From IMG/VR virus record IMGVR_UViG_3300027763_000216, positions 1 through 25,991 of that record: a stretch of 25,991 nt of DNA; one strand, written 5' to 3'. The notes below the pieces were generated by a model. The model ran no database searches and was not told the origin of the DNA. It saw only the letters and a list, made by a program, of their open reading frames with translations. The first letter of the stretch is position 1. Each line of letters begins with the position of its first letter. The DNA comes from a virus. Shown piece by piece: positions 2,111 through 25,302 of the stretch. Made by a program: the position numbers and the translations under genes.

Positions 2111-3222
2111 AGTTCACATCCTGTAAATAAAATTTGCGAATTTCCAGACGGTGACAACAAAAATGTTCCCTGTCCAGAGGTTAAACCAGAACCACCAGTA
2201 CAATTTAATGCTCCTGAATATAAACTTTGACCAGCAGCTAATGTAATAGATGTAAAGTTTCCTGAGTTTCCACCTATTATTGTGTAAGCATTAAAAGAAC
2301 CAGTAACCGAAATTCCAGTTGCTATAGTTCTAACTTGAACTGGAAAAACACAATTAATAAGTACACTTGTAGTTGCATTAGCAAATCCTGAACCAAGAGA
2401 ACCATTGGATGCACTAAAATTAAAAGCTGGTAGATAGCGTTGGCAAAGTTGTAGTTCTGTAGTGTAAGGTCTATAGTCAAAGCTAGTAGCGTTTTCGCCT
2501 TTTTCTAGTTGTACACCTGTTATGTAGAATGTTGCACCGCTTGTGCCTACTACTGATGTTGCTCCTGTGGCTGAATAATAAGCATTAGCCGACCAAGAGC
2601 CAGCCGTACCACTTCCTGTAGAACCTACTCCAAGTCCAAAAGATACATACAATCCAATTCCGTTTGTTGCACCAGCCCATGTTCCTGCGGTTGGTCCAGC
2701 AACAGTTACGCTAATTGTTGTCCATGTATTAGCTACAGGAATGGAATAAGTAAAAGGATAACAATAGTTTGAGCCTTCATTGTTAATAGAGCCACCAAAA
2801 GTGCCTGTTAATGAAGAATATACTTGAAATGATAAAGTTACTGTTTTTGCATTGGCGGTTCCCCAACCTAAATCAGCAGTATTAAAACCTTCAATTTTTT
2901 GAGCCGTATAAAAAATATCAGCCGCTAAAACAGAATAATTAGACAATGAAGTAAAACCTAAATACTTAGAAAACCCTGTTGGGGGTGTTACAGAGCCAGC
3001 ATTTTGTTGAGCAGTTAATTTAGATGATTGTGAACCATATACATAAAATCTATCTGTAACAAAAGTGTTAGTTGCTGTAACTGCCACACTAGCACCAGCA
3101 TTTCTTTGGTCTATAACCATCGCACCATTAATAATACGATTTCTAAATACAGAACTTGATGGAGCTAATGTATTGTTTAAACTGTCTTTGACTGTATCGA
3201 CCTGAATTTGACCATACGGCAT
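2107..3222 (-). CDS. Tail fibre/receptor-binding protein with carbohydrate-binding-like module
   Basis: 371 residues. Residues 1-25 (MPYGQIQVDTVKDSLNN) are a short attachment region common in phage fibres. From residue 26 comes the fold beginning FRNRIINGAMVIDQRNAG, with DRFYVY, an aromatic beta-rich middle, and TFYITGVQLEKGENATSFDY at about 231-250 followed by TTELQLCQRYL. The arrangement 'NRIINGxMxIxQR ... DR(W/F) ... QLExG ... F(D)xRxYxxELxLxQRY' is widespread in phage fibres and looks like a galactose-binding/CBM beta-sandwich. The C-terminal 134 residues form a variable tip. The same scheme ends the 945-residue fibre at 16843-19680. It has an AAAGGA site 6 bases before the start. Confidence 0.85.
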   Translation of the reverse strand: MPYGQIQVDTVKDSLNNTLAPSSSVFRNRIINGAMVIDQRNAGASVAVTATNTFVTDRFYVYGSQSSKLTAQQNAGSVTPPTGFSKYLGFTSLSNYSVLAADIFYTAQKIEGFNTADLGWGTANAKTVTLSFQVYSSLTGTFGGSINNEGSNYCYPFTYSIPVANTWTTISVTVAGPTAGTWAGATNGIGLYVSFGLGVGSTGSGTAGSWSANAYYSATGATSVVGTSGATFYITGVQLEKGENATSFDYRPYTTELQLCQRYLPAFNFSASNGSLGSGFANATTSVLINCVFPVQVRTIATGISVTGSFNAYTIIGGNSGNFTSITLAAGQSLYSGALNCTGGSGLTSGQGTFLLSPSGNSQILFTGCEL

Positions 3223-3262
3223 GATTTATCCTTTACTTTCTCTTATTTTAAAGTAGTTTTCA

Positions 3263-3763
3263 TTACAATACTACCCATCTTTGACCTGTAGGAATTGTGA
3301 CTGTAATACCACTATCAACAGATATAGGCCCAACGGATTCCGCATTCTTGCCCGATGGAAGTGTATAGTTAGTTGTTACAACCGTACTATTAAGAACAAA
3401 TACTTGATCCCCACCGCCACCAGTTGCACCACCACCTACCTGAGTCCATCCACTAGCTGAATATCCTTCAAACTGTGCAAATGTAGAGTTATAACGAATC
3501 ATACCTGCGTATGGTGTAGCTGACCTTTGTCCAGTTGTTCCTACAGGAAGATTAATCTGCCCTGTACCACCAAATGTTACTGTGCTATCTAACCCAATTA
3601 ATGGGCCTGTAATCGTAGTCTGACCATCGGCAGCAATAGACTGCGTAAGAGCATTAGCAATGTCTGAGAGGGTGTTATTAGCCCATGTAGAGCTGATAGT
3701 TGTACCAGTTTGTACAGGGTTTCCAGCAGGAAGATTGAATATTCCATTACCGTTTCTACTCAT
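3263..3763 (-). CDS. Short tail fibre/appendage protein
   Basis: 166 residues. The N-terminus (SRNGNGIFNLPAGNPVQTGT then TISSTWANNTLSDIANAL) is a recognisable virion-attachment segment of many environmental podovirus fibres. The middle has a 'G-x-IRYNST-x-x-x-FEGYSASGW' label-type motif, then a Gly-rich linker. The last 30 residues (SVGPISVDSGITVTIPTGQR then WVVL) match the C-terminus of the 60-residue protein at 16500-16682. It overlaps the end of the 514-residue gene by 8 bases. A structural fibre role is well supported; the ligand is unknown. Confidence 0.82.
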   Translation of the reverse strand: MSRNGNGIFNLPAGNPVQTGTTISSTWANNTLSDIANALTQSIAADGQTTITGPLIGLDSTVTFGGTGQINLPVGTTGQRSATPYAGMIRYNSTFAQFEGYSASGWTQVGGGATGGGGDQVFVLNSTVVTTNYTLPSGKNAESVGPISVDSGITVTIPTGQRWVVL

Positions 3764-5300
3764 TATTAACTCCTTGCGTTGTTTGTTTTAGCATCAATGC
3801 TCTTGCTAAATCTTGAGCATTTTTAGATGGAGGCATTAAACCTGAAGCCTTACCTGTGTAATATGCAGCTTCACCCATTAAGCGAGGAGATGCCATTAAA
3901 GCGGCAGGAGCAAGCATTGGGTTAGTTAAAGCTGCGCCACCAATATATCCCATACCACCTAAGCGACTAGATAAACCTCTTGGCATTGCAGAATTTAAAG
4001 CCTGTCCAGCAAGTGCGGGCATGACTTCTTGACCACCTTGTTGTTCCAATGTTTTCATTTGATCTAAACGACTACCATAATTAGTGCTTACATTATTACG
4101 AGTTAAAGACTGTAATTTGCGTAATTGTGTATCAGTAGCAGCTTTGCCAGTCTGACTAAATGTTCGCTTAATTTCATTAATAGTGTCTAAGCCTTCATGA
4201 TAATCTTTCATCACTTTAGAGTATTCAGGAGCTTGTTTATTAATTGCTGTTTTAACAGAAGAATAAATATCACCAACAGCTTTTCTTGCAGCCGTATTCT
4301 TAAAATCAATATCTTCTAAGATTCCACCGATTTGTTGTTTTAAAGCATCTAAACCTTCAGGAGTATGGTATTCAGCAGGGTCTAATTTCCCCCACTTAGT
4401 AATAGCTTTGTTTGCTTCATCTATTTTCTCAGAAGCTAAAGCATTTTTGCTTTGACCTTTAAACTTAAACGCATCATTTACATCTTTAAGTGTTTGTTGA
4501 ATAGGAGTAAGATCTAATACAGACTTATCGTTTTTAATATTTACCATGCCACCACGATAGGCAGAAGATAAATCTTGACCCATTTTGGTTAAGTTAGAAG
4601 ATACATTTTCTAATACGTCAGATTGAGCTACTCTTTTACGCAAGTTATCAGCAAACATTTTGCCTGTTTCTAAACCTTCTTTACCTGCTCTATATGCTTG
4701 TTTAATAGCTTCAGAACCTGCGCCTGTTGTTGCGCCTAACATTTCAGGTAAACCAGCTTTTATTAATGCGCCTGCTGCTGGTAAAAATCCACCAACACCT
4801 GCGTTAATAGCACCTTCTTTAATACGTTCTTGTTGTGAGCCAGGTGTTAGTCCATAACCTAATGTCCCACCCGCAATAGCCTCAGCACCAACCCGACCTG
4901 CTAAGTTTGCAGGTAATGCAGCCCTTAATACTTTAGACATTGCTGTACCGGGTATAAAATAAGACCCTATCTGACCAGCAGTAGCACTAATAGGCTCAAT
5001 TTCTTTCATTTTAGAAACTAAATTTTGACCTTGCTGAACCATTTGTGAGCCAGTTTCAGGGAAAGCTAACTGAGTTAATGCACCTACACCTTTATATAAT
5101 TCACCAGCACCACTCATTAAAGGTACACCACCTAATGTGGCTAAAGCAGGACTATTTGTTTTAGGTAATTCAAAATTACCAAGAGATACTGTGGCTTTTG
5201 GTGGAGCTTGAACAGGTGCTTGTGATGTAGTCTGACCTAAATACGCATCAGGATCAAATGTTGATGGTGTTTGTAAATATTTATCAGGATCAAAAGCCAT
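3756..5300 (-). CDS. Probable internal virion/DNA-ejection protein (514 residues)
   Basis: No enzyme motif is visible. The N-terminus carries two copies of a short motif, FDPDKYL and FDPDAYL (residues 3-9 and 15-21). Next come long Gly/Ala-rich, weakly hydrophobic helices (about 57-185 and 415-490, for example GMGYIGGAALTNPMLAPAAL) flanking a charged helical centre (about 190-410). Amphipathic helical, low-Cys composition and the position between nozzle/head genes and fibres are typical of podovirus internal proteins that are ejected with the DNA. A pilot-protein role is inference from composition and position. It starts a few bases after the stop of the upstream gene. Confidence 0.65.
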   Translation of the reverse strand: MAFDPDKYLQTPSTFDPDAYLGQTTSQAPVQAPPKATVSLGNFELPKTNSPALATLGGVPLMSGAGELYKGVGALTQLAFPETGSQMVQQGQNLVSKMKEIEPISATAGQIGSYFIPGTAMSKVLRAALPANLAGRVGAEAIAGGTLGYGLTPGSQQERIKEGAINAGVGGFLPAAGALIKAGLPEMLGATTGAGSEAIKQAYRAGKEGLETGKMFADNLRKRVAQSDVLENVSSNLTKMGQDLSSAYRGGMVNIKNDKSVLDLTPIQQTLKDVNDAFKFKGQSKNALASEKIDEANKAITKWGKLDPAEYHTPEGLDALKQQIGGILEDIDFKNTAARKAVGDIYSSVKTAINKQAPEYSKVMKDYHEGLDTINEIKRTFSQTGKAATDTQLRKLQSLTRNNVSTNYGSRLDQMKTLEQQGGQEVMPALAGQALNSAMPRGLSSRLGGMGYIGGAALTNPMLAPAALMASPRLMGEAAYYTGKASGLMPPSKNAQDLARALMLKQTTQGVNNE

Positions 5301-5301
5301 T

Positions 5302-6642
5302 TTATTGACCTAACCTTTTCTTAATGTCAGTAGAACGTGGGTCTTTAGGATTTGAATTAGCCCAAGCAAGTGCTTCTGTATCTTGCGGACTTAATTTAGG
5401 TGCATTAACATTTTTTTTATTAAATCTTCCTTCTTGAGCGTATTCTGTGTCAAATGCAAATCTATCTTCTCGCATTTTTAAAAATCTATTTGTTTCTTTT
5501 GCAGCTCTTTCTACCCAATTTTTCATAATATCTGGTGAGGCTTCATAACCTGGAAAATCTTTAATCATTTGTGCCATTTCTTTGTCAGAACTTGCACCTT
5601 TTAATTGTGATAAATTATTTAAAACAGAACCAATTTGTAAATTATTTATTTTTACTTGAGCATCAAGAGTTTTAGTTGGCCCAGCCATTCTTCCAAGTCT
5701 TGACGTAGAATAATCAGTTAAAGATCCAAAAGCATTTGTAATATCATCTTCACTTAAATTATTTAATTTATTTATTAAAGCTATTCCTGCATCATGTTCT
5801 TTTTGAGCTTCATTTACAACAGATGCTGGAAATACACGTCCTTTTGGTGTGGTATAAGAACCATTTTTGTTATATCTGCCAACAGGAATTCCATTGTTAT
5901 TAACCCCACCACCTTCATTTGAAATTAGTCCACCGCCAACACTAATTTTTATGGGTCGTTCTTTGTAATTAGCCACTTCTCTTGAAAATTGCGTAAAAGT
6001 ACCTGGGTACTTATCAACTTGTACTGCATATTCGTAGTTTTTACGCATTTCCGATGGAGAATATTCTTTAGGACTTTGATAAAGTGTTTCAAATGTTCCG
6101 TCATCTTTTGCTCTGCCTACAGTTCCACCTGAGGGTACATTAATTAATTCAGGGGGTTTTGTCATCTTAGTAAGCAATGTTCCTGCAAACTGTTGTGCTA
6201 AAGGATTAGTTGAATTTTGACCTCTTAATATAGCTGCCATTGGATTTGGTGCTTGACCTTCAATAGTTCTATTTGGCAAACTCTTTTGACCTTGATTTAA
6301 CATTTCTTCAGTTGGTGGCCCTGCTTGTGGCACTTGTTGCTCAGGTGTACCCTTAGAAAGTTTTAACATTTGTTCTAAATCTTGTGTCCCTCTATTTCTA
6401 ATAGCTTCGGCTAATGCAGCAGCTTTAACATCACCTTGTTCTGCTAATCTTCGACCTTGATACGCATTTACTAAAGGAAGTATGTTTTGAAAGAAACTAG
6501 GAGGCACAAAACGATTACCTACCATCTGACCTTGTGGTTGCTGAGTTTGACTCAATAACATTTGAGCCATTTTTTGCTGACGATTAATCTCTTGTTGCTG
6601 TTGATATTCTTCAGGTGATAAATTACCAAATTGATCTGCCAT
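5302..6642 (-). CDS. Probable virion/internal protein, Gln-rich N-terminus (446 residues)
   Basis: The first 120 residues are Gln/Pro-rich and probably extended (PEEYQQQQEINRQQKMAQML). The middle has a short beta-like 'ELINVPSGGTVGRAKDDGTF' stretch, and the second half is helical (about 275-400). The C-terminus has LSPQDTEALAWANSNPKDPR followed by STDIKKRLG, a pattern I recall at the ends of phage virion proteins (D-x-E-A-L-x-W-A-x-x-N-P-x-D-P-R-x-x-x-I-x-x-x-L). It lies between the S74-containing protein and the 514-residue protein, so it is most likely part of the ejected or tail-associated set. Start support is AAGGA, 6 bases before ATG. No catalytic function is recognised. Confidence 0.65.
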   Translation of the reverse strand: MADQFGNLSPEEYQQQQEINRQQKMAQMLLSQTQQPQGQMVGNRFVPPSFFQNILPLVNAYQGRRLAEQGDVKAAALAEAIRNRGTQDLEQMLKLSKGTPEQQVPQAGPPTEEMLNQGQKSLPNRTIEGQAPNPMAAILRGQNSTNPLAQQFAGTLLTKMTKPPELINVPSGGTVGRAKDDGTFETLYQSPKEYSPSEMRKNYEYAVQVDKYPGTFTQFSREVANYKERPIKISVGGGLISNEGGGVNNNGIPVGRYNKNGSYTTPKGRVFPASVVNEAQKEHDAGIALINKLNNLSEDDITNAFGSLTDYSTSRLGRMAGPTKTLDAQVKINNLQIGSVLNNLSQLKGASSDKEMAQMIKDFPGYEASPDIMKNWVERAAKETNRFLKMREDRFAFDTEYAQEGRFNKKNVNAPKLSPQDTEALAWANSNPKDPRSTDIKKRLGQ

Positions 6643-6651
6643 AATTATTCC

Positions 6652-6996
6652 TTAAAATGAATCTACAGAAAAATCAGGGCTAGTAGGGACTTGTCCTTGA
6701 CCACCGTAACCGTATACATTGCCTGAACCGTATCGAGCCATTCCATATTGTGCTTGACCTTTTTTATAAAGATCACTATTTCTAAGTGCTTGAGCCATAG
6801 CTACTTGACTTGCATCACCACCCAGTTGTTGACCTTTTTGCGTCATGCCTGCTTGTTGTACTTGTTGGGCTTGAGCCTGCAATGCAGCGTTTTGGTTAGC
6901 TTGTTGTTGACCAATATTCTGAAATGTTGGCATTAAACCCTGTTGAGCGTCTTCAAATCCGTTAGGCATATACATATTTGTGTAAGGATTAGGCAT
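6652..6996 (-). CDS. Small Gln/Gly/Tyr-rich virion-associated protein (114 residues)
   Basis: Low-complexity protein with a Gln/Ala helix at about residues 28-55 (QQQANQNAALQAQAQQVQQA) and a Gly/Tyr-rich C-terminal third (YGMARYGSGNVYGYGGQGQ). I do not recognise the family. Its start overlaps the end of the S74-domain gene by 8 bases, and the pair is probably translationally coupled. Similar Gln-rich composition in both neighbours suggests a shared virion assembly, but this is inference. Confidence 0.65.
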   Translation of the reverse strand: MPNPYTNMYMPNGFEDAQQGLMPTFQNIGQQQANQNAALQAQAQQVQQAGMTQKGQQLGGDASQVAMAQALRNSDLYKKGQAQYGMARYGSGNVYGYGGQGQVPTSPDFSVDSF

Positions 6997-8032
6997 TTAA
7001 CACTCCATAATTAACCATTTTGTATCCGTCAGGTCTATGTATAACCGCTTCAGGCTGTACTTCTTGAACTTCATGAGCCATGACACCAATAAACTTGCCA
7101 TGACCAGCCTCAGCCTTCCATTCGGGCTTATATTCAAATTCATAGACAGGTAATCCATTAAGCAACCAGCCAATAGCTTTAATGTTTTCTTTGGTGCGGA
7201 TGTCAGACAAACCAGCAGCACCAAGACCCATCAAGCCAGCATTAAAGTTAGCTTGTTGTGCAACCTTAGAGTTAAAGTCGCCCATCTGAGCGTTGTAACC
7301 CATTTGAGCAGCACCTAAAGTATCAGCACCTGAAGTTGTTGCTTGCTGTGCAGAGTTTACAAATGTAGGATTCTGTACTTGTGCGCCTGTACGCAATGCA
7401 CTTAATGTATTTAAAGGAATATTGTATTTTGTAAGTTCTTGACCAAATGCTTGTTGATTTGCAGCTAAACCAGCATTAAGTCCTTGCGTTGTATTAGCTG
7501 CCAATAAGTCATTTTCTTTCTGAGCTTGACTCATTTGCGCTCTCATATAAGCCTCAGAACCTACAGGAATTCCCGAATTTGCTAATTGGTTGTTTAATGC
7601 CTCACGACTTTGTTGTAATTGAGGTTGTAAGCGTTGCATTGCAGCGTCTTGGTACGATTGGCCTGGGTTATATCCAGTTGAAGGTAAATTAGGGTTAAAT
7701 CCTTGACCCATTGTGTTTTGTACTTGACCAAGTTGGGCATTAATTGTGCTACCTAAGCCCAAACTAGTTTGATTTTGTGTGTCTAATAATTGTTTACCGA
7801 CATTTGAAAGGGAGGTAGCAGCAGTCCATGTTGGATTACCATATGGGTCTTGACCTGTAATGAAATAATCTAAGTTTCCATAAGGAGTTACTTGATTAAC
7901 ACGATTAGCAGCAGTCGCAGCTCTTGCAGCGTCTAAGTTTCCTGATGCAGTTTCTTGTGCTGCCGCCTTATAGTCAGGAGGAGGAGGCGCACTAGCAGCA
8001 GGCCCTAATCCTAAAAATCCACCACCACCCAT
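6989..8032 (-). CDS. Virion protein with C-terminal intramolecular chaperone (peptidase S74) domain
   Basis: 347 residues. The N-terminus is Gly/Ala/Pro-rich (MGGGGFLGLGPAASAPPPPD), followed by a long Gln/Ala/Asn-rich helical body. The last 72 residues are an endosialidase-type intramolecular chaperone: LSDIRTKENI (Ser276 of the S-D-x-R-x-K motif is the predicted self-cleavage nucleophile), then VYEFEYKPE, GKFIGVMAHEVQEVQPEAV and YKMVNYGVL. In fibres and spikes this domain trimerises the protein and then cuts itself off. Here the body is not a beta-helix or classic fibre, so the partner is more likely a trimeric virion or tail protein. AAAGGAG lies 7 bases before the start. Confidence 0.82.
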   Translation of the reverse strand: MGGGGFLGLGPAASAPPPPDYKAAAQETASGNLDAARAATAANRVNQVTPYGNLDYFITGQDPYGNPTWTAATSLSNVGKQLLDTQNQTSLGLGSTINAQLGQVQNTMGQGFNPNLPSTGYNPGQSYQDAAMQRLQPQLQQSREALNNQLANSGIPVGSEAYMRAQMSQAQKENDLLAANTTQGLNAGLAANQQAFGQELTKYNIPLNTLSALRTGAQVQNPTFVNSAQQATTSGADTLGAAQMGYNAQMGDFNSKVAQQANFNAGLMGLGAAGLSDIRTKENIKAIGWLLNGLPVYEFEYKPEWKAEAGHGKFIGVMAHEVQEVQPEAVIHRPDGYKMVNYGVLNA

Positions 8033-11876: not shown

Positions 11877-12170
11877 TCAAACAGATGCCTTACCAAACCA
11901 GCCATAATCACCTGATGCCATTGAAGCACCTGATAAATATGTACCTGCTGATGGTGTTGCTACAAAAGTAGAAGCGTTAATTGAGCAAGTTGCTGTCGAT
12001 GCTCCAATTGCTGCGCCTGCTTGTGCGAACACATAACGTAAGCCATCTGAACCAAATACTTCAGCACCCAATGGGCCAATCGTAGGAACTGCTGTACCAG
12101 CAGAATTTGGATTGGTTTGTGCGGTGTTGTAAAGGTCGATCCCAGCTAAGGGGGTAATTGTAAATGCCAT
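11877..12170 (-). CDS. Probable capsid decoration/head protein (97 residues)
   Basis: Small Ala/Gly/Thr-rich beta-type protein without Lys/Glu-rich helices. The N-terminus is AFTITPLAGIDLYNTAQTNP; the middle has GLRYVFAQAGAAIGAST; the end is SGDYGWFGKASV, a strand resembling the closing strand of small head-decoration proteins encoded next to major capsid genes. It starts 26 bases after the capsid stop with the same strong site (AAAGGAAAATTATC before ATG) used by the capsid gene, so high expression is likely. The decoration role is inference from position, size and composition. Confidence 0.65.
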   Translation of the reverse strand: MAFTITPLAGIDLYNTAQTNPNSAGTAVPTIGPLGAEVFGSDGLRYVFAQAGAAIGASTATCSINASTFVATPSAGTYLSGASMASGDYGWFGKASV

Positions 12171-12195: not shown

Positions 12196-12273
12196 TTAAG
12201 AGCCTGTTAAGACACCTTGTAAGAACGAATTCGAACAAGTTAAATTTCCTGCCCAACCATACAACTTCACAAT
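12196..12273 (-). CDS. Major capsid protein exon 3
   Basis: 25 codons plus TAA. It encodes IVKLYGWAGNLTCSNSFLQG then VLTGS, the expected last strand and tail of this capsid family, which is missing from exon 2. It is too short to be noticed as a separate gene. An AUG spans the last intron bases but has no ribosome binding site. Confidence 0.85.
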   Translation of the reverse strand: MVKLYGWAGNLTCSNSFLQGVLTGS

Positions 12274-13653
12274 CATTTCTGTTACTTTCAGTCTTTCGAC
12301 TTACTGACCACTTTCATGGCGGAGCAACTTCTTCGAATCGCTCTCTAGGACTTTAAACTTCAAGTTATATCCCAGTTCAGACTATCGCTTACTCTTTCGA
12401 GTCCCTCTCACTTAGTCGTTCACGCTGCTTTCGCTTGCGCCCTGTCGTCTACTTCTAGACTTCCAAGTCAATCAGAGTGGGTTTATAGACACCATTAATG
12501 CAACGTAGGTTTAGCGTCTTGGTTGATGGACTGTCTTTCGCCACCAATAGGAACAAAGTTACGCTCTTTATGAGGACGCAAGAAGATGTAATTTGTGTTT
12601 AGCAAATACATATAAGTTGCAGACTCTTGTGCGCCATAACCGCCTCCTAATACCACATCAGCAGACATACCACCACCGTAGAACTTGAGTGATGCAAAAC
12701 CTGCTGCGCCTTCTTCGACACCAGCGATACGCTGAATAGCCTGTAAAGAAGCAACATAGTATTGATACAAAGTATTACCAGCTACGATTAAGTCTACTTT
12801 ATCAGTACCACGAACAGATTTGATAGCAGCAGTAGTCATTGCAGCTTGGATAGTTGTGGAAGATGTAGCACCAGTAGTTGCTTGGTTTCTCCAAAATTCC
12901 CAGTTTGCACGATTAATACCACCATAAGTACCGCTTGTAGGTGAAGTTGATACAGCAGCAGCCAATCCAGTAATATTTTTACCACCGTTACCTGTACCGT
13001 CACCATAGATGTCAGTAGAAATACGGTTTAAAAGACGAGCTTCAGAAACTTGCATACGACCATCTAGCAAGTCAATGATTGCTTCTTTAGAGCTGTTCTG
13101 CAACATTTCTAAACCACTCATTGTTACGCTATCTGCGTACTGAGTAATAGAGAACTGAGCAGCACTAATTGGGCTATCAGGGGTGATATTAAGCACCTCG
13201 TAGCCCGAATAGCTATTAGCATTGTTAGTATTTGGATCATTGTACATTATTTCCTCGCACTATGTTAGCAGTTACTTACTTCTAGTAACGCACTAGGTCA
13301 TTTCTGCCTAGTTCTTGGACTTCTGATCCTAAGTTATATCCAAGTTCAGACTATCGCTTCACCTTTTCAGGTGTTCTCTCGCTTAGTCGTTCAGGCTGTA
13401 TTTAAACTTGCCCCTTGTTGTCCCCTTCGGGAGTTCCAAGTCAATCAGAGAGAATTCTCACATCTGAGTTTTAATTCAGAGTGACCCCAACATTAAGGAT
13501 GACATTACCACCTGAGAAGGGACGTACATTGCCCTTAGAGTTTAAACGCTGAAGAATTGCATTGTTTTGAGTCAAGTTATCTGCCAACACACCGCTACGA
13601 CTTTGAATGGTAGTAGCGATAATATCGGTGATTGCGCTATTTGCGAATGCCAT
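12196..13653 (-). CDS. Major capsid protein, HK97-fold, coded in three exons split by two group I introns
   Basis: Joined exons (best model 13496-13653, 12513-13257, 12196-12273; 158+745+78 = 981 bases) encode 326 residues, the usual size for this podovirus capsid family. Order: N-arm AFANSAITDIIATTIQSRSG, then PFSGGNVIL/EEIMYND across junction 1, SYSGYEVLN, P-domain helices with SGLEMLQNSSKEAIIDLLDG and YGDGTGNGGKNITGL, RPHKERNFVPIGGERQSINQ, then DA/IVKLYGWAGNLT across junction 2 and the C-terminus FLQGVLTGS. Each exon unspliced ends in an early stop (TAA 13471-13473; TAA 12495-12497). AAAGGAAATATC precedes the start, and the scaffold gene is directly upstream. Capsid identity is very likely. 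Splicing is predicted from RNA motifs and restored reading frame, not shown. Confidence 0.88.
12274..12512 (-). ncRNA. Group I intron 2 in the major capsid gene (no ORF)
   Basis: Predicted 239 nt. P1: exon AGACGCT (12513-12519) pairs over 7 bp with the guide GGTGTCT (12487-12493), ending in the diagnostic U-G pair. P10: TAAT (12494-12497) pairs with the 3' exon start ATTG. P7 is GACTA (12413-12417) with TAGTC (12380-12384). P8 is ACTC-GAAA-GAGT (12391-12402). P9-type hairpins follow (CCAT-GAAA-GTGG and AGTC-GAAA-GACT). The intron ends in G (12274), and splicing joins GCT to ATT in frame. It shares the P3-side block (12461-12477), the R/S core and GGATATAACTT with intron 1. No ORF of useful size is inside. 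Confidence 0.87.
12513..13257 (-). CDS. Major capsid protein exon 2
   Basis: The main body of the capsid protein. The frame is open from EEIMYND to the junction after INQDA (GCT at 12513-12515), and unspliced it hits TAA at 12495-12497. The ATG at 13245-13247 lies inside the family-conserved stretch and is probably an internal Met, not the start, although GAGG six bases before it could allow initiation on unspliced RNA. Confidence 0.85.
13258..13495 (-). ncRNA. Group I intron 1 in the major capsid gene (no ORF)
   Basis: Predicted 238 nt. P7 strands GACTA (13384-13388) and TAGTC (13349-13353) lie within the typical AACGACTAAG and AAGCGATAGTCTGAAC core segments. P8 is CACCT-GAAA-AGGTG (13360-13373). 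P3-side block TTCTCTCTGATTGACTTGGA is at about 13435-13454, opposite GCGAGAG. Proposed P1: exon GTCATCCT (13496-13503) with guide GGGGTCAC (13481-13488), one C-C mismatch and the required U-G pair at the splice site. A P2-like stem pairs 13477-13483 with 13459-13466. The intron ends in G (13258). Alternative ends shift each site by a few bases. There is no homing endonuclease or other ORF. Confidence 0.8.
13496..13653 (-). CDS. Major capsid protein exon 1
   Basis: 52 codons plus two bases, from ATG 13651-13653 to the predicted 5' splice site after ...ATCCT. Unspliced, the frame would run on to a TAA at 13471-13473 (60 residues). The exact end is model-dependent: ending at 13489 (after ...AATGTT) is an alternative with a weaker P1 helix. 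Confidence 0.8.
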
Positions 13654-13677: not shown

Positions 13678-14736
13678 TTAAAGCCTGCCGTCCATCGCCT
13701 GACCTAATTGTTCGGCTAATAATGAACGTCTGTCCTTTGCATCTCCCTTAGACACTTGACCGCTAGGTGTAACGGATCGTGGACTAATAGCAGTTGCTTT
13801 GGCTCGTGCTACTTGCTGCGCCTTAGATGCTTGGCTACTAGTTGATTTCAGGAGTCTATCCGTCTCCAACTTGTAGGCTTCATCGTTCATACGCACAGCT
13901 TTCGAATAAGCCGTTTCTAGGTTTTGGGCTAAACCTCGCTCAAGGAGTTGAGCCATATCTTCCCTTACCATTTCAAAGTGCGGAAACCGCTCCTTGTCAC
14001 TACTAACTCGATTGATTTCTTGGTTTAATCGAGCATTTTCTTCTTGATCACGAATCGCTGACAGTTGCTGAACTTGTTGCTGTGTAGCTTGAAGTTGTTG
14101 CATTAACTGTTGTTGATACGGATCAACATATTGCTGTTCAGGCATTTGTATGCCGTCTTGGTTTAATTGTATTCCATAATCTTGTGCAAGTCTATGAAAC
14201 ATCTGTACCTTCTCTTGGTACGGAGCTTTAGATAGAACCATGTGCGCCCGACCTAAGTTATTAATCCATGCTACAGGGTGAATATTCTGTGCCTGTAACT
14301 CAGGGATGAATGGCCCAATAGCTTCAGTTAATTGTCTAGCTCTATCCGCTTCCTCTTTGTAAGTAGATACTCCACGTCTGTACTCATTCTCACGTTGGTT
14401 GGCATAGTCAGCAAATTTAGCAAACTCTTGTTTATCAAGAGGCTTACCATCCTTCAACTTGTCCCAAACTTCTACATACTCTTTTTTCCAAGTAGTCGGT
14501 TTTTTGACTTCTTCTACTTGTTCTTCGGGTTCTTCTTCGTCAGGGGTAGAAGATTCGGGTTCATCTTTTTCAGTAAATCTACCCTGTTCATCACGAGCCT
14601 GTGCTTCATTTTCTGCTTCAATAGGGTCATCATTGACCTCTATTTCTTTTTCTTCAGGGGCTTCTAATGTACCTTCTTCAGCTTGATCAAGTGCTGCTTC
14701 TATCATATCCCTGCGACTTTCTAATTCTTCTGACAT
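13678..14736 (-). CDS. Scaffolding protein
   Basis: 352 residues. The N-terminal 85 residues are strongly acidic and low-complexity (EEEPEEQVEEVKKP with repeated EAEN/DEPE segments). The middle is helical with VPK-like TTWKKEYVEVWDKLKDGKPL, a Gln-rich coiled coil at about 200-240 (QQQLMQQLQATQQQVQQLSA), and a basic Ser-rich C-terminus (SKGDAKDRRSLLAEQLGQAM) suited to capsid binding. Composition, helical content and the position directly upstream of the major capsid gene are standard for podovirus scaffolds, which direct procapsid assembly and then leave or are removed. AGGA precedes the start. Confidence 0.82.
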   Translation of the reverse strand: MSEELESRRDMIEAALDQAEEGTLEAPEEKEIEVNDDPIEAENEAQARDEQGRFTEKDEPESSTPDEEEPEEQVEEVKKPTTWKKEYVEVWDKLKDGKPLDKQEFAKFADYANQRENEYRRGVSTYKEEADRARQLTEAIGPFIPELQAQNIHPVAWINNLGRAHMVLSKAPYQEKVQMFHRLAQDYGIQLNQDGIQMPEQQYVDPYQQQLMQQLQATQQQVQQLSAIRDQEENARLNQEINRVSSDKERFPHFEMVREDMAQLLERGLAQNLETAYSKAVRMNDEAYKLETDRLLKSTSSQASKAQQVARAKATAISPRSVTPSGQVSKGDAKDRRSLLAEQLGQAMDGRL

Positions 14737-14744
14737 GGCGATTC

Positions 14745-15143
14745 CTATCTGTAGTTAAGTTTTGAGTATGCTATTTCAGCAATTTGACGTTTTCTAGCTT
14801 CATTGTCTTTAGTGCTAAATTCGTGTTTTTTCTGTGTCATTGGCAAATCATTACCGACCTCAACGCAGTTATTACGTTTTAAGTTCTCACGATGCTTAGA
14901 CCGACTAGATACCCAAGAACCGTCTGCCATAGATATATGACCTGCAATATCAGGGATTACCATAGGTGCTTGTTTGGGAGTCATAGCCTCTTTTTCCTTC
15001 CATGCAGCCTCACCTTCAGGAGAACCTATCTCATAATTCCAGTACATGAGGTACTTTTCTTTGTCACTCAATTGAGCTTCGTCAACTTCTTCATAGTCAC
15101 TCTTACATAAAGGGCAACATTTATGGACTTTTACAACAGACAT
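14745..15143 (-). CDS. Small conserved structural-region protein with CxxC N-terminus (132 residues)
   Basis: The N-terminus is MSVVKVHKCCPLCKSDYEE: one CPLC pair, but I see no second Cys pair to complete a zinc ribbon, so metal binding is uncertain. The middle and end contain PMVIPDIAGHISMADGSWVS and SSRSKHRENLKRNNCVEVGN, a combination ('G-x-x-V/I-x-SR-S-K-H-R-E-x-L-x-R-x-x-x-VEVGN') I recall from small proteins near podovirus capsid genes. The function is unknown; a head-assembly or regulatory role is possible. TAATG overlap with the glycosyltransferase gene, good AAGGAG site. Confidence 0.7.
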   Translation of the reverse strand: MSVVKVHKCCPLCKSDYEEVDEAQLSDKEKYLMYWNYEIGSPEGEAAWKEKEAMTPKQAPMVIPDIAGHISMADGSWVSSRSKHRENLKRNNCVEVGNDLPMTQKKHEFSTKDNEARKRQIAEIAYSKLNYR

Positions 15144-16045
15144 TACATTCTCCTTATTAATTCAGGTACTTGGTCGTACTCATGGGGTCTTAAACAAACA
15201 ACGCTATCATACCAACGTGCATTTTTCCATCGCCAGCAAACAAATTCTTCTTTGGGTAATAAAACAATGGTTTTTATGCCTAATGCACCAGCCAAGTGTG
15301 CCGTTCCTGTGTCTACGGTCACAATTCCCTTGCAGGCTTTCATGTGTGAGGCTGATTTAGACCAATCTTTTTGCCATCCGTCATCAGGTAAGGCGTTAAA
15401 TAAGCCTTCAGTCTTGGGATTTAGGCTATAACAGTCCGATCCTGTGAGTTTTTCCATCTCACGCATATCCATTGACTTGATGTAGTACAGCATTTGCTTA
15501 GATGCCTCCCAATTTACCCCTATCTTGCTAGGAATATTGCTTGGTTCAGCATGAAAATACCCCTCAGAACCTACAATTCTATGTTTATTAACTGGAAATA
15601 GACATTTAACCGATGGGTGCATCAAGCTAATGTAATAAGGTAAAGACATTGACCCTATCCAGTAATCAGAAGTTAATGTGTCCACATCATCAATTTCATT
15701 GGTAAATTTATCTATGCACTCCATCTGACCTAATAAGTAATGTAAGGAAGATTCTTGTAGGACAATGACTTTCTTAGCCCCCAAAGCCTTTAATGCTGGC
15801 AAGAATCTAGCATACATAAAGATGTCACCATATCCCTGTTCCATCTGAACGGTAATGGTTTTCCCTAATAAAGACTCACCTCGCCATACAGGTACATTTT
15901 TTAGTGTTGGGCCATATCCTTGAGCTTGTTTTCCAATAATTTCAGGATGCCAACGATACTCAAATAAACGAAATCCTTGTTCGTAGCGTCCAGCATGAAG
16001 GTGTTCGTATGCTAATTTATATTGGTGGTCTACATTAGAAATAAT
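15143..16045 (-). CDS. GT9-type glycosyltransferase with non-canonical start (AUU or frameshift)
   Basis: The C-terminal 233 residues from ATG 15844 contain the start of a GT-B fold (MEQGYGDIFMYARFLPALKA) and the donor-site motif IVTVDTGTAHLAGALGIKTI, typical of ADP-heptose:LPS-type (GT9) transferases. The same frame is open upstream for 67 more residues carrying the family's usual preceding segment: HLHAGRYEQGFRLFEYRW (TPR-like helix), VPVWRGESLLGKTITVQ. No ATG, GTG or TTG exists in that extension. GAGGA stands six bases before ATT 16043-16045, which is the best start. The other options are a -1 shift from the upstream gene, or a truncated gene starting at 15844. The acceptor is unknown, possibly virion or cell-surface sugar. 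Confidence 0.72.
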   Translation of the reverse strand: MISNVDHQYKLAYEHLHAGRYEQGFRLFEYRWHPEIIGKQAQGYGPTLKNVPVWRGESLLGKTITVQMEQGYGDIFMYARFLPALKALGAKKVIVLQESSLHYLLGQMECIDKFTNEIDDVDTLTSDYWIGSMSLPYYISLMHPSVKCLFPVNKHRIVGSEGYFHAEPSNIPSKIGVNWEASKQMLYYIKSMDMREMEKLTGSDCYSLNPKTEGLFNALPDDGWQKDWSKSASHMKACKGIVTVDTGTAHLAGALGIKTIVLLPKEEFVCWRWKNARWYDSVVCLRPHEYDQVPELIRRM

Positions 16046-23634: not shown

Positions 23635-25302
23635 CTATTTCTTGATTTTATTAAACTGTTCTTCTAATTGGTCTTTACGACTTAGCCCTATTACTGGTAT
23701 TCCAGCAAACATTTCTGAGCCAAACTTTTGAATCAATGATTTGCGTTCATCAGCAGAGCCATACTTGTATATATCTTTAATGCCGTTTTTTTCTAGTACA
23801 GACATTGTTTTAGCAGATACATCACTTGGAACAATAGCACCCTTGAATTCATTAATACCTACAGCTCGTTGAGGTTTAACTTCAAAATACTCTGTTGGCA
23901 TTTGTTTTAAGCCATTCATGTAATTGCTTATCTGATCTTTTAAATCTTTAGGCAAATTAGGGTAAACCCTGTCTAATGCGTTTATGTTTTTTGTCTCAGC
24001 AACCTCTAACAACGCATCTCTAGCGTCATAATTATTGATACCTTTTAAATTATTAATAATAGAATCATATTCTTTATCTGCTTTAGTTTTTATAACGTCA
24101 AAATCTTCGCTTTTAACAAGCCGATTGCGACTGTTTTTAATTTCTTCAAGATTTTTAAACTTAGGGGTAATTAAAGCTCTTATGTTGCCAACTCCGTAAT
24201 CATATCCTTCAGAACTTGCTCCACCCTTCATTTCTTTAACAACATTTTCTAAATTTACATTAGAATATTTGCGATTTCCTGACGGTGTATACCCTTTAAA
24301 TATTTTTGCTTTAGCATCAACACCGTAAAAAGGTAACATTTCATCAAAATTTTCAACCCAATTATCGTATTGATCTTTATTTTTTTTTATCAAATCTTTA
24401 ATGTCAGCGTTTTGTTTCCATTTTTCTGTGTATTCAGACAAATTAGGCAATAAACCTTTTTCATCTAAAAATTTTGCTTGTAATAATTTATTATCTGCTC
24501 TATCTTTAAACTTATCTAATAAATGAAACATATCATAATTAGAGTTATAAATTTTATCCTCTAACCCTGAGAACAAATCTTTTAATTTTTCTTCTGATTT
24601 GTAAGTTAACGGATAAGTAATTTCAGGCGATCTTTTTGTGTAAGCGTCTGATTTAAATGCAGGATTAGTTTTAGAGGGGATTGCCATTTCTTTTCCACCT
24701 ACTAAAGTAATATCACCAAACCCTTTTATGGGAGATTCAGTTTTACTTATAGCTAATGATGGTGCTGGCATACCACCTAATTTTTCAGCCGCAGCAAGTT
24801 TTTCAGGACTTACGTTGTGCAATACAAGCATTTCTTCACCAGCCCTAACATTAGGCACAAATGGAGATTGAGCTTCTTTGATCATGTTTCCTAATGGTAA
24901 ACCCTCAGTAGCTTTAGCACCTGCTCTTAATAAATAAGGCATAGCTGGACTTATTAATCCACCAACCATTTCATGTTGTTGACTGCCCTGATAGTCAGGG
25001 TTAATTCTAGGTATTTTAGCAAGTAGTTCTTCAGAAGTTGGTGCTGTTCTGTTACCAAATGTGTTTTGCATAGTTTCAGGTATAAACTGTCTAGCAAGTT
25101 GACTTGTATCGCCAGCAAGGGCAGGTAATTGAACTAATGCGCCTCGACCTAATGACTCTACTACGCTAGGAGTAACTTTAGCTACGTTTCTAATACCCTG
25201 ACCTAGTTCTTGGTACGACTGTTTCTTAGACATACCACGCAACAAGTCTGCAAATGTTTGCCCTAAAGACGGTTCATTAGGATCGTATTCAGGGTAGGCC
25301 AT
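23635..25302 (-). CDS. Large polyvalent/MuF-associated-like protein of unknown function (555 residues)
   Basis: Residues 1-150 are a structural-looking leader (SLGQTFADLLRGMSKKQSY; RGALVQLPALAGDTSQLARQ). From about 158: EEMLVLHNVSPEKLAAAEKL, GGMPAPSLAISKTESP and GFGDITLVGGKE. This 'L-x-HN-x-(S)-x-x-x-L-x-x-A-x-x-L-GG-x-x-x-PSLA(I/V)' signature recurs in very large phage and mobile-element 'polyvalent' proteins and MuF-linked effectors. The middle (about 210-460) is Lys/Asn-rich helical. The end carries YFEVKPQRAVGINEFKGAIV followed by an alpha/beta tail, also typical of those proteins. No catalytic set is certain. It could be injected with the DNA or act as an anti-defence or host-takeover factor. 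Confidence 0.65.
   Translation of the reverse strand: MAYPEYDPNEPSLGQTFADLLRGMSKKQSYQELGQGIRNVAKVTPSVVESLGRGALVQLPALAGDTSQLARQFIPETMQNTFGNRTAPTSEELLAKIPRINPDYQGSQQHEMVGGLISPAMPYLLRAGAKATEGLPLGNMIKEAQSPFVPNVRAGEEMLVLHNVSPEKLAAAEKLGGMPAPSLAISKTESPIKGFGDITLVGGKEMAIPSKTNPAFKSDAYTKRSPEITYPLTYKSEEKLKDLFSGLEDKIYNSNYDMFHLLDKFKDRADNKLLQAKFLDEKGLLPNLSEYTEKWKQNADIKDLIKKNKDQYDNWVENFDEMLPFYGVDAKAKIFKGYTPSGNRKYSNVNLENVVKEMKGGASSEGYDYGVGNIRALITPKFKNLEEIKNSRNRLVKSEDFDVIKTKADKEYDSIINNLKGINNYDARDALLEVAETKNINALDRVYPNLPKDLKDQISNYMNGLKQMPTEYFEVKPQRAVGINEFKGAIVPSDVSAKTMSVLEKNGIKDIYKYGSADERKSLIQKFGSEMFAGIPVIGLSRKDQLEEQFNKIKK

Follow-up and report, generated by a model that had tools for sequence, protein, structure and literature searches.

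How can a capsid gene that is broken into three reading frames still encode one protein of the phage shell? By direct reading, positions 13653–12196 on the minus strand of the window (the whole 25,991-nt stretch of viral DNA analyzed here) hold pieces of one protein in three frames. A preliminary description of this DNA had proposed that removing two insertions restores one HK97-type protein, and had noted early stops after the pieces. We conclude, at a probability of roughly 94%, that the major capsid gene has two compact, endonuclease-free group I introns, whose most likely fate is self-excision from the late mRNA, leaving a message for one 326-amino acid (aa) capsid protein.

Layout of the interrupted gene

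Two constraints set the junctions in the window, leaving P1 pairing aside: the reading frame, and the rule of a U as last exon base and a G as last intron base. Both window introns allow such ends in frame, and the rule also fits the well-resolved sites in relatives. The gene and its neighbors are arranged as follows:

13678..14736, minus strand: gene directly upstream of the capsid gene; 352 aa, acidic, scaffold-like by position, no family match
13496..13653, minus strand: exon 1 of the major capsid gene; phrog_9953, E = 2.5e-9; placed by the exon-U/intron-G rule and uninterrupted homologues
13258..13495, minus strand: group I intron 1, 238 nt; predicted 5′ splice site after ...CATCCT; ends ...AGTG
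13301..13457, minus strand: intron 1 catalytic core (P3, P4, P5, P6, P6a, P7, P8, P9), from the core alignment and covariation
12513..13257, minus strand: exon 2, capsid protein body, 745 nt; phrog_9953, E = 1.2e-71
12274..12512, minus strand: group I intron 2, 239 nt; predicted 5′ splice site after ...GACGCT; ends ...AAATG
12332..12484, minus strand: intron 2 catalytic core (P3 to P9), from the core alignment and covariation
12196..12273, minus strand: exon 3, C-terminal strand IVKLYGWAGNLT..., 78 nt including the stop codon; uninterrupted in L003 and others
11877..12170, minus strand: gene directly downstream of the capsid gene; 97 aa, no family match

Exon 1 comprises 158 nt that encode the N-terminal arm, amino acids 1–52 and two bases of codon 53, and its last base is U. 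Each upstream exon, if read through, meets an in-frame stop inside the following intron, in agreement with the early stops noted before. Excising 13495–13258 and 12512–12274 leaves 981 nt, which encode 326 amino acids and a stop codon, and the joined exons specify an HK97-like protein of phrog_9953, as had been anticipated. The junctions given in the preliminary description (13496 to 13257 and 12513 to 12273) are identical to those that follow from the exon-U/intron-G rule and the frame, and its gap sizes of 238 and 239 nt are exact. At the level of sequence, the boundaries of both insertions are established.

The protein’s identity rests on several comparisons. An uninterrupted homologue in contig L003 matches phrog_9953, ‘major head protein’, with E = 1.5e-95, and the same gene in named phages is annotated as the major capsid protein. 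The profile of the capsid family matches the capsid of cyanophage A-1(L) (7f38, E = 7e-4). An AlphaFold model of the capsid protein is poor (pLDDT 55) and was weighed only together with this profile match; a structure search with it returns almost only capsids. By these comparisons, the protein matches solved HK97-type capsids.

Among the neighboring genes, the 97-aa product of 11877..12170 is possibly a head protein, judged by its position. Elsewhere on the minus strand of the window, positions 23635–25302 encode a 555-aa protein with a PBECR5 domain (phage Barnase-EndoU-ColicinE5/D-RelE like nuclease) and adjoin the terminase genes, and a gene at 15143–15844, among structural genes, weakly matches glycosyltransferase family 9.

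Empty sites and independent copies

We collected the 80 closest relatives by searching IMG/VR with the middle piece as query. No intron is present at the window sites in 62 of them, most of which appear as a single open frame. In contig L003, one uninterrupted frame specifies this protein with 99.7% identity across all 326 residues. Both introns recur in L002, which comes from another metagenome and whose matching flanking protein pieces are 100% identical; both are also present, in part, in L001, and L011 carries intron 1 at 99% identity. Because the sites stand empty in relatives and are filled in independent copies, the insertions are real, polymorphic and precisely removable, and the recurrence of the same introns in L001, L002 and L011 excludes an assembly artefact. 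L044, L069 and L074 have an intron at a third insertion site, near aa 61.

A shared group I core

The two gaps of the window have a common core sequence. Its P7/P8 pattern, GAACGACTAAG(8-38)GCGATAGTCTGA, occurs twice in the window versus zero occurrences expected by chance, and viral contigs have at least 120 stretches that contain it. Across an alignment of 69 non-redundant cores, a structure of P3, P4, P5, P6, P6a, P7, P8 and P9, with P7 crossing P3, leaves 95.9% of cells paired, and both sides change at 26 of the 37 pairs. We counted 516 cells with two-sided changes, compared to 154 in shuffled alignments, and none of 500 shuffles reached the observed values. Pairing falls to about 40% if the partners are shifted by one to three columns. 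Covariation is found in P3, P5, P6, P6a, P8 and P9, P4 varies on one side only, and P7 is invariant, with a bulged C (A-C-GACUA...UAGUCU) in all 69 sequences. Comparison of the sequences establishes a conserved group I core with its P3/P7 pseudoknot, and the P7 helix (GACUA/UAGUC) with its bulged base has the sequence of a guanosine-binding helix, for which guanosine binding is predicted.

A held-out covariance model, trained only on introns outside phrog_9953 capsid genes, recognizes both gaps, with 155.0 bits for intron 2 and 137.2 bits for intron 1, and finds no third place in the window at E-values up to 10. Core, covariation and held-out matches together support the identification of both gaps as group I introns, and support the reading that two such introns interrupt one HK97-like capsid gene.

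The compensatory pair changes indicate an RNA fold kept by selection, which bears on whether the gene is alive at all. The insertions could be debris in a decaying or chimeric contig from which no whole capsid protein is made, as a gene that is not readable through as DNA, on a record that is a linear fragment, might suggest. We regard this as very improbable: the same introns are found in independent contigs, the intact exons match uninterrupted homologues, and the fold has been maintained.

Guide pairing and proposed splicing

At well-resolved sites, to which the P1 analysis was confined, a guide near the start of the intron pairs with the final 4–8 nt of the 5′ exon, and a U lies opposite a G at the cut. 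Automatic placement by the junction finder was wrong at some P22 sites and at several loci of the C-terminal site, among them L001, L163, L249, L257 and L267. Both window introns form a P1 with U·G at the cut, as group I introns do. The P1 of intron 2, AGACGCU/GGUGUCU, has 7 bp and a score reached by 0.6% of shuffled intron starts; that of intron 1, AUCCU/GGGGU, has 5 bp and is weak on its own because 8.6% of shuffles reach its score. Exons pair with their own guides at a mean score of 13.1, versus 5.6 with guides from other sites (twelve entries from ten sites, two of which are repeated by the window introns), a comparison that leans towards this result because the junction finder itself favors good P1 pairing.

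From these elements, a conventional route of splicing may be proposed. P1 would arise from pairing of the 5′ exon end with the internal guide and would place the conserved U·G at the cut. A guanosine held at P7 would attack the cut site in the first transesterification, and the freed exon U would then attack after the intron’s last G in the second, joining the exons.

The ribosome itself could, in principle, deal with the interruptions in two other ways. It might hop over the gaps by translational bypass, as in T4 gene 60, with no RNA splicing, and the same protein would be restored. The gap of T4 gene 60 is about 50 nt; those of the window are about 240 nt and contain a complete, covarying group I core, and their ends follow the exon-U/intron-G rule with a site-matched P1. 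Consequently, we give hopping hardly any weight. Alternatively, separate polypeptides made from internal starts might assemble the shell without RNA splicing. Exon 2 does have a Shine–Dalgarno-like stretch before an ATG, GAGGAAATAATG, at about 13257–13246, but this stretch is ordinary coding sequence (E-E-I-M) that intronless relatives have too. Exon 3 has no in-frame start near its beginning and encodes only 25 amino acids, the pieces would bear intron-encoded tails, and the group I core would be left unexplained. Such an assembly is highly unlikely, and we retain splicing of two group I introns as the preferred reading.

Translation and splicing may nevertheless be coupled. In bacterial group I introns, ribosomes that enter the core block splicing. 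Termination before P3 would keep translating ribosomes from unfolding the core, and an in-frame stop, mostly UAA, lies at most 50 nt before P3 in every one of the 56 distinct introns whose frame is known. However, the other two frames also have a stop in 38 and 51 of the 56 introns. These stops weaken the case for the in-frame stop as proof of selection, and because of them its role as a translation brake is suggestive only.

A related possibility accepts true group I introns and supposes that partial splicing regulates the yield or timing of capsid production, instead of being a neutral burden. Two introns per gene, each with an in-frame stop before its core, could couple splicing to translation. 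In contrast, most close relatives have no introns, and the control would therefore be dispensable; we consider regulation of this kind unlikely.

Detection by Rfam

The preliminary description had proposed a search of both gaps with the Rfam group I model. RF00028 scores neither: it has no match in the window or in the 1.6-kb gene region, even at E = 10, and nothing in the window reaches its gathering cut-off of 50 bits. Two introns verified by RT-PCR, those of the mycobacteriophages LittleE and BAKA, receive 30.7 and 28.6 bits from the same model, both below the cut-off, and we therefore read the miss in the window as a failure of the detector. Within the window-intron family, the L137 sister of intron 1 scores 20.8 bits and two introns in L133 score 30.5 and 26.9 bits, all below threshold, and the L095 members that were tried are also missed.

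Above the cut-off, RF00028 finds a second intron type in the phrog_9953 capsid family, with 56.2 bits in L196 and 53.3 bits in L137. These introns lie at 5723–6002 (plus strand) in L137 and at 2868–3090 (minus strand) in L196, at about aa 145 and aa 83, respectively, and both capsid genes also carry a window-type intron. In the phrog_9953 group, capsid genes consequently harbor two or more kinds of group I intron.

Distribution of the intron family

We scanned the exon pieces that adjoin core matches against PHROGs; pieces of one gene may count repeatedly and one piece may match two families. Among the matches listed for 121 pieces, the major head proteins are phrog_283 (P22-type, 38 pieces), phrog_1357 (24), phrog_9953 (20), phrog_267 (6) and phrog_1328 (2), an approximate share of 70%, while fewer of the listed matches are to tape measure, portal and other proteins. 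Window-type introns also occur in ribonucleotide reductase and terminase genes.

Searching 26 whole contigs with the intron model gave 24 places in 14 contigs. The window’s intron-bearing relatives have one match each, always in the capsid gene; the other contigs have two to four matches each, in or around capsid genes, with one of the genes, in L104, lacking a family match. That gene (L104, 2137–3780) has three family introns, its exons match no PHROG, and it possibly encodes an undescribed capsid protein. In P22-type genes, introns occupy about eight different positions, with as many as three in a single gene. In L095, two introns are counted and a third is visible on reading the sequence. 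Four model matches, one of which is weak, fall in a stretch of about 1.3 kb in the phrog_1357-type gene of L133; in the same gene, at about 5567–7064, the P6 loops of two introns contain short sense inserts that continue into the core, one of which is a 62-aa open reading frame (ORF).

In 84,980 cellular species genomes, the P7/P8 pattern occurs only five times. Three of these occurrences are in or beside capsid or tape-measure genes (a P22-type coat gene, by sequence, in L448; phrog_1357 in L451; a tape measure gene in L449), and the genes at the other two (L450, L452) have no family match. In L450, from a Burkholderiales metagenome-assembled genome, the intron near 2255 stands beside a long ORF without a family match, followed by an ORF of endonuclease VII/HNH type (phrog_2633).

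The preliminary description had regarded two introns in one capsid gene as uncommon, a view that calls for correction: capsid-gene introns had already been published (PMC3706429), and the window-intron family is found mainly in capsid genes. On balance, we favor a broader reading of this distribution. A virus-centered group I subfamily would be specialized on the major capsid genes of unrelated phages (P22-, phrog_1357- and phrog_9953-type), a single one of which would hold as many as four copies. Its lateral spread would rely on guides that match each site, and it would switch between two states: introns whose P6 loop contains an antisense LAGLIDADG gene, and mini-introns that lack an endonuclease. 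Part of the same reading is that the family was overlooked because Rfam’s model misses its members and gene callers break the capsid gene.

An annotated case is MW202674 (L203), where an intron-split P22 coat gene at 2685–4200 is recorded as two ‘P22 coat protein’ genes and a spurious hypothetical protein inside the intron. Because split capsid genes are misannotated in this way, capsid-based surveys and classifications of environmental phages lose such viruses.

Gain, probable transfer and proposed mobility

Introns are present in 34 of 157 complete capsid genes (~22%) of the two nearest groups, in a patchy distribution, and the insertion sites in relatives are near aa 53, near aa 61 and at the C-terminus. 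On the tree, intron presence requires a minimum of 6 changes at the aa-53 site (7 genes with the intron), 3 at the aa-61 site (3 genes) and 10 at the C-terminal site (25 genes). Introns cluster by insertion site, not by phage. This grouping rules out intron 2 as a within-gene copy of intron 1, and the two window introns are therefore not recent copies of each other.

A signal of transfer is seen when introns and exons are compared. Intron 1 is 88% identical to the L137 intron, whose flanking exons are only 74% and 68% identical, and it is only 75–80% identical to introns in genes with 81–86% identical exons. Since structural constraint alone does not reverse the order of identities, transfer between capsid lineages is the simplest reading, and the comparison suggests that intron 1 moved horizontally.

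A Pfam scan found no homing endonuclease among the 20 ORFs of the window, and the window introns, which contain no ORF, lack the encoded endonuclease of a homing (mobile) intron. Within the family, 25 of 138 core introns have an insertion in the P6 loop, 11 of which encode a LAGLIDADG-motif protein on the reverse strand; twelve P6-loop introns hold short inserts, some with small sense ORFs. Three of the LAGLIDADG proteins were compared with Pfam, and one matched PF00961 at E = 6e-4, just below the curated cut-off. The antisense LAGLIDADG-like genes are in L091, L093, L105, L117, L138, L144, L150, L172, L179, L188 and L200.

From these forms, we infer a likely cycle in which endonuclease-bearing introns home and then lose the gene, and in which the resulting mini-introns persist and move by recombination. 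The introns were probably gained site by site via recombination between phages, possibly driven by their endonuclease-bearing relatives.

Relation to known intron systems

A group I intron in a phage capsid gene is a known kind of element, as it has been demonstrated in the major capsid gene of mycobacteriophage LittleE (JF937101) by RT-PCR and N-terminal protein sequence; the intron in a BAKA tail gene is an endonuclease-free group I intron whose RNA splicing was shown by RT-PCR (PMC3706429). Like the window introns, both lie inside a phage virion gene, have exon-U/intron-G ends and share a 3′ motif, CAGAAAUGACC...GUAAC. Unlike the window’s capsid gene, each interrupted gene has one intron. 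LittleE resembles the window-intron family in having its endonuclease gene on the bottom strand, but that gene lies downstream of the core, whereas it lies in the P6 loop in the family. LittleE’s core sequence is also a different one: model R1 finds it at the right place with 19.2 bits (E = 0.18), a distant link only, and we rejected the assignment of the window-intron family to the LittleE type.

The Jug huge phages have compact group I introns, with a mean of about 206 nt and many per genome, that interrupt essential genes, and most of their endonuclease genes stand alone (PMC12363816). Compared by description, they share with the window introns a small size, essential host genes and an endonuclease mostly outside the intron; they differ in that the reported examples are in terL, nrdD and DNA polymerase genes of huge gut phages (PMC12363816). 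The capsid gene of mirusviruses has many introns, some with homing endonucleases (PMC12768974). There, too, an intron-rich capsid gene belongs to a tailed-phage-related virus and introns are concentrated in virion genes, but these introns are spliceosomal and the viruses infect eukaryotes (PMC12768974). The window’s gene is a bacterial-virus parallel, by another splicing chemistry.

In the literature searched, which covered few subscription journals, we found no multi-intron phage capsid gene and nothing beyond LittleE’s single intron. A compact subfamily concentrated in capsid genes across unrelated phages, with several introns per capsid gene and near-invisibility to Rfam, looks new. Capsid proteins are the largest late output, and introns in their genes would consequently make virion yield depend on the efficiency of a ribozyme. 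With its usual residence in capsid genes of unrelated phages, and with naturally occurring alleles that have or lack introns, the family lends itself to studying why selfish RNAs favor genes of this kind.

A member of the same intron family is also found in an isolated marine phage, Roseobacter phage CRP-118 (OR420741, L204), which has a window-type intron at 2992–3152 (97.2 bits with model R1) and is a culturable system for splicing tests. It differs from the window in that the intron lies between two parts annotated as ribonucleotide reductase, a gene of nucleotide metabolism and thus the classic place.
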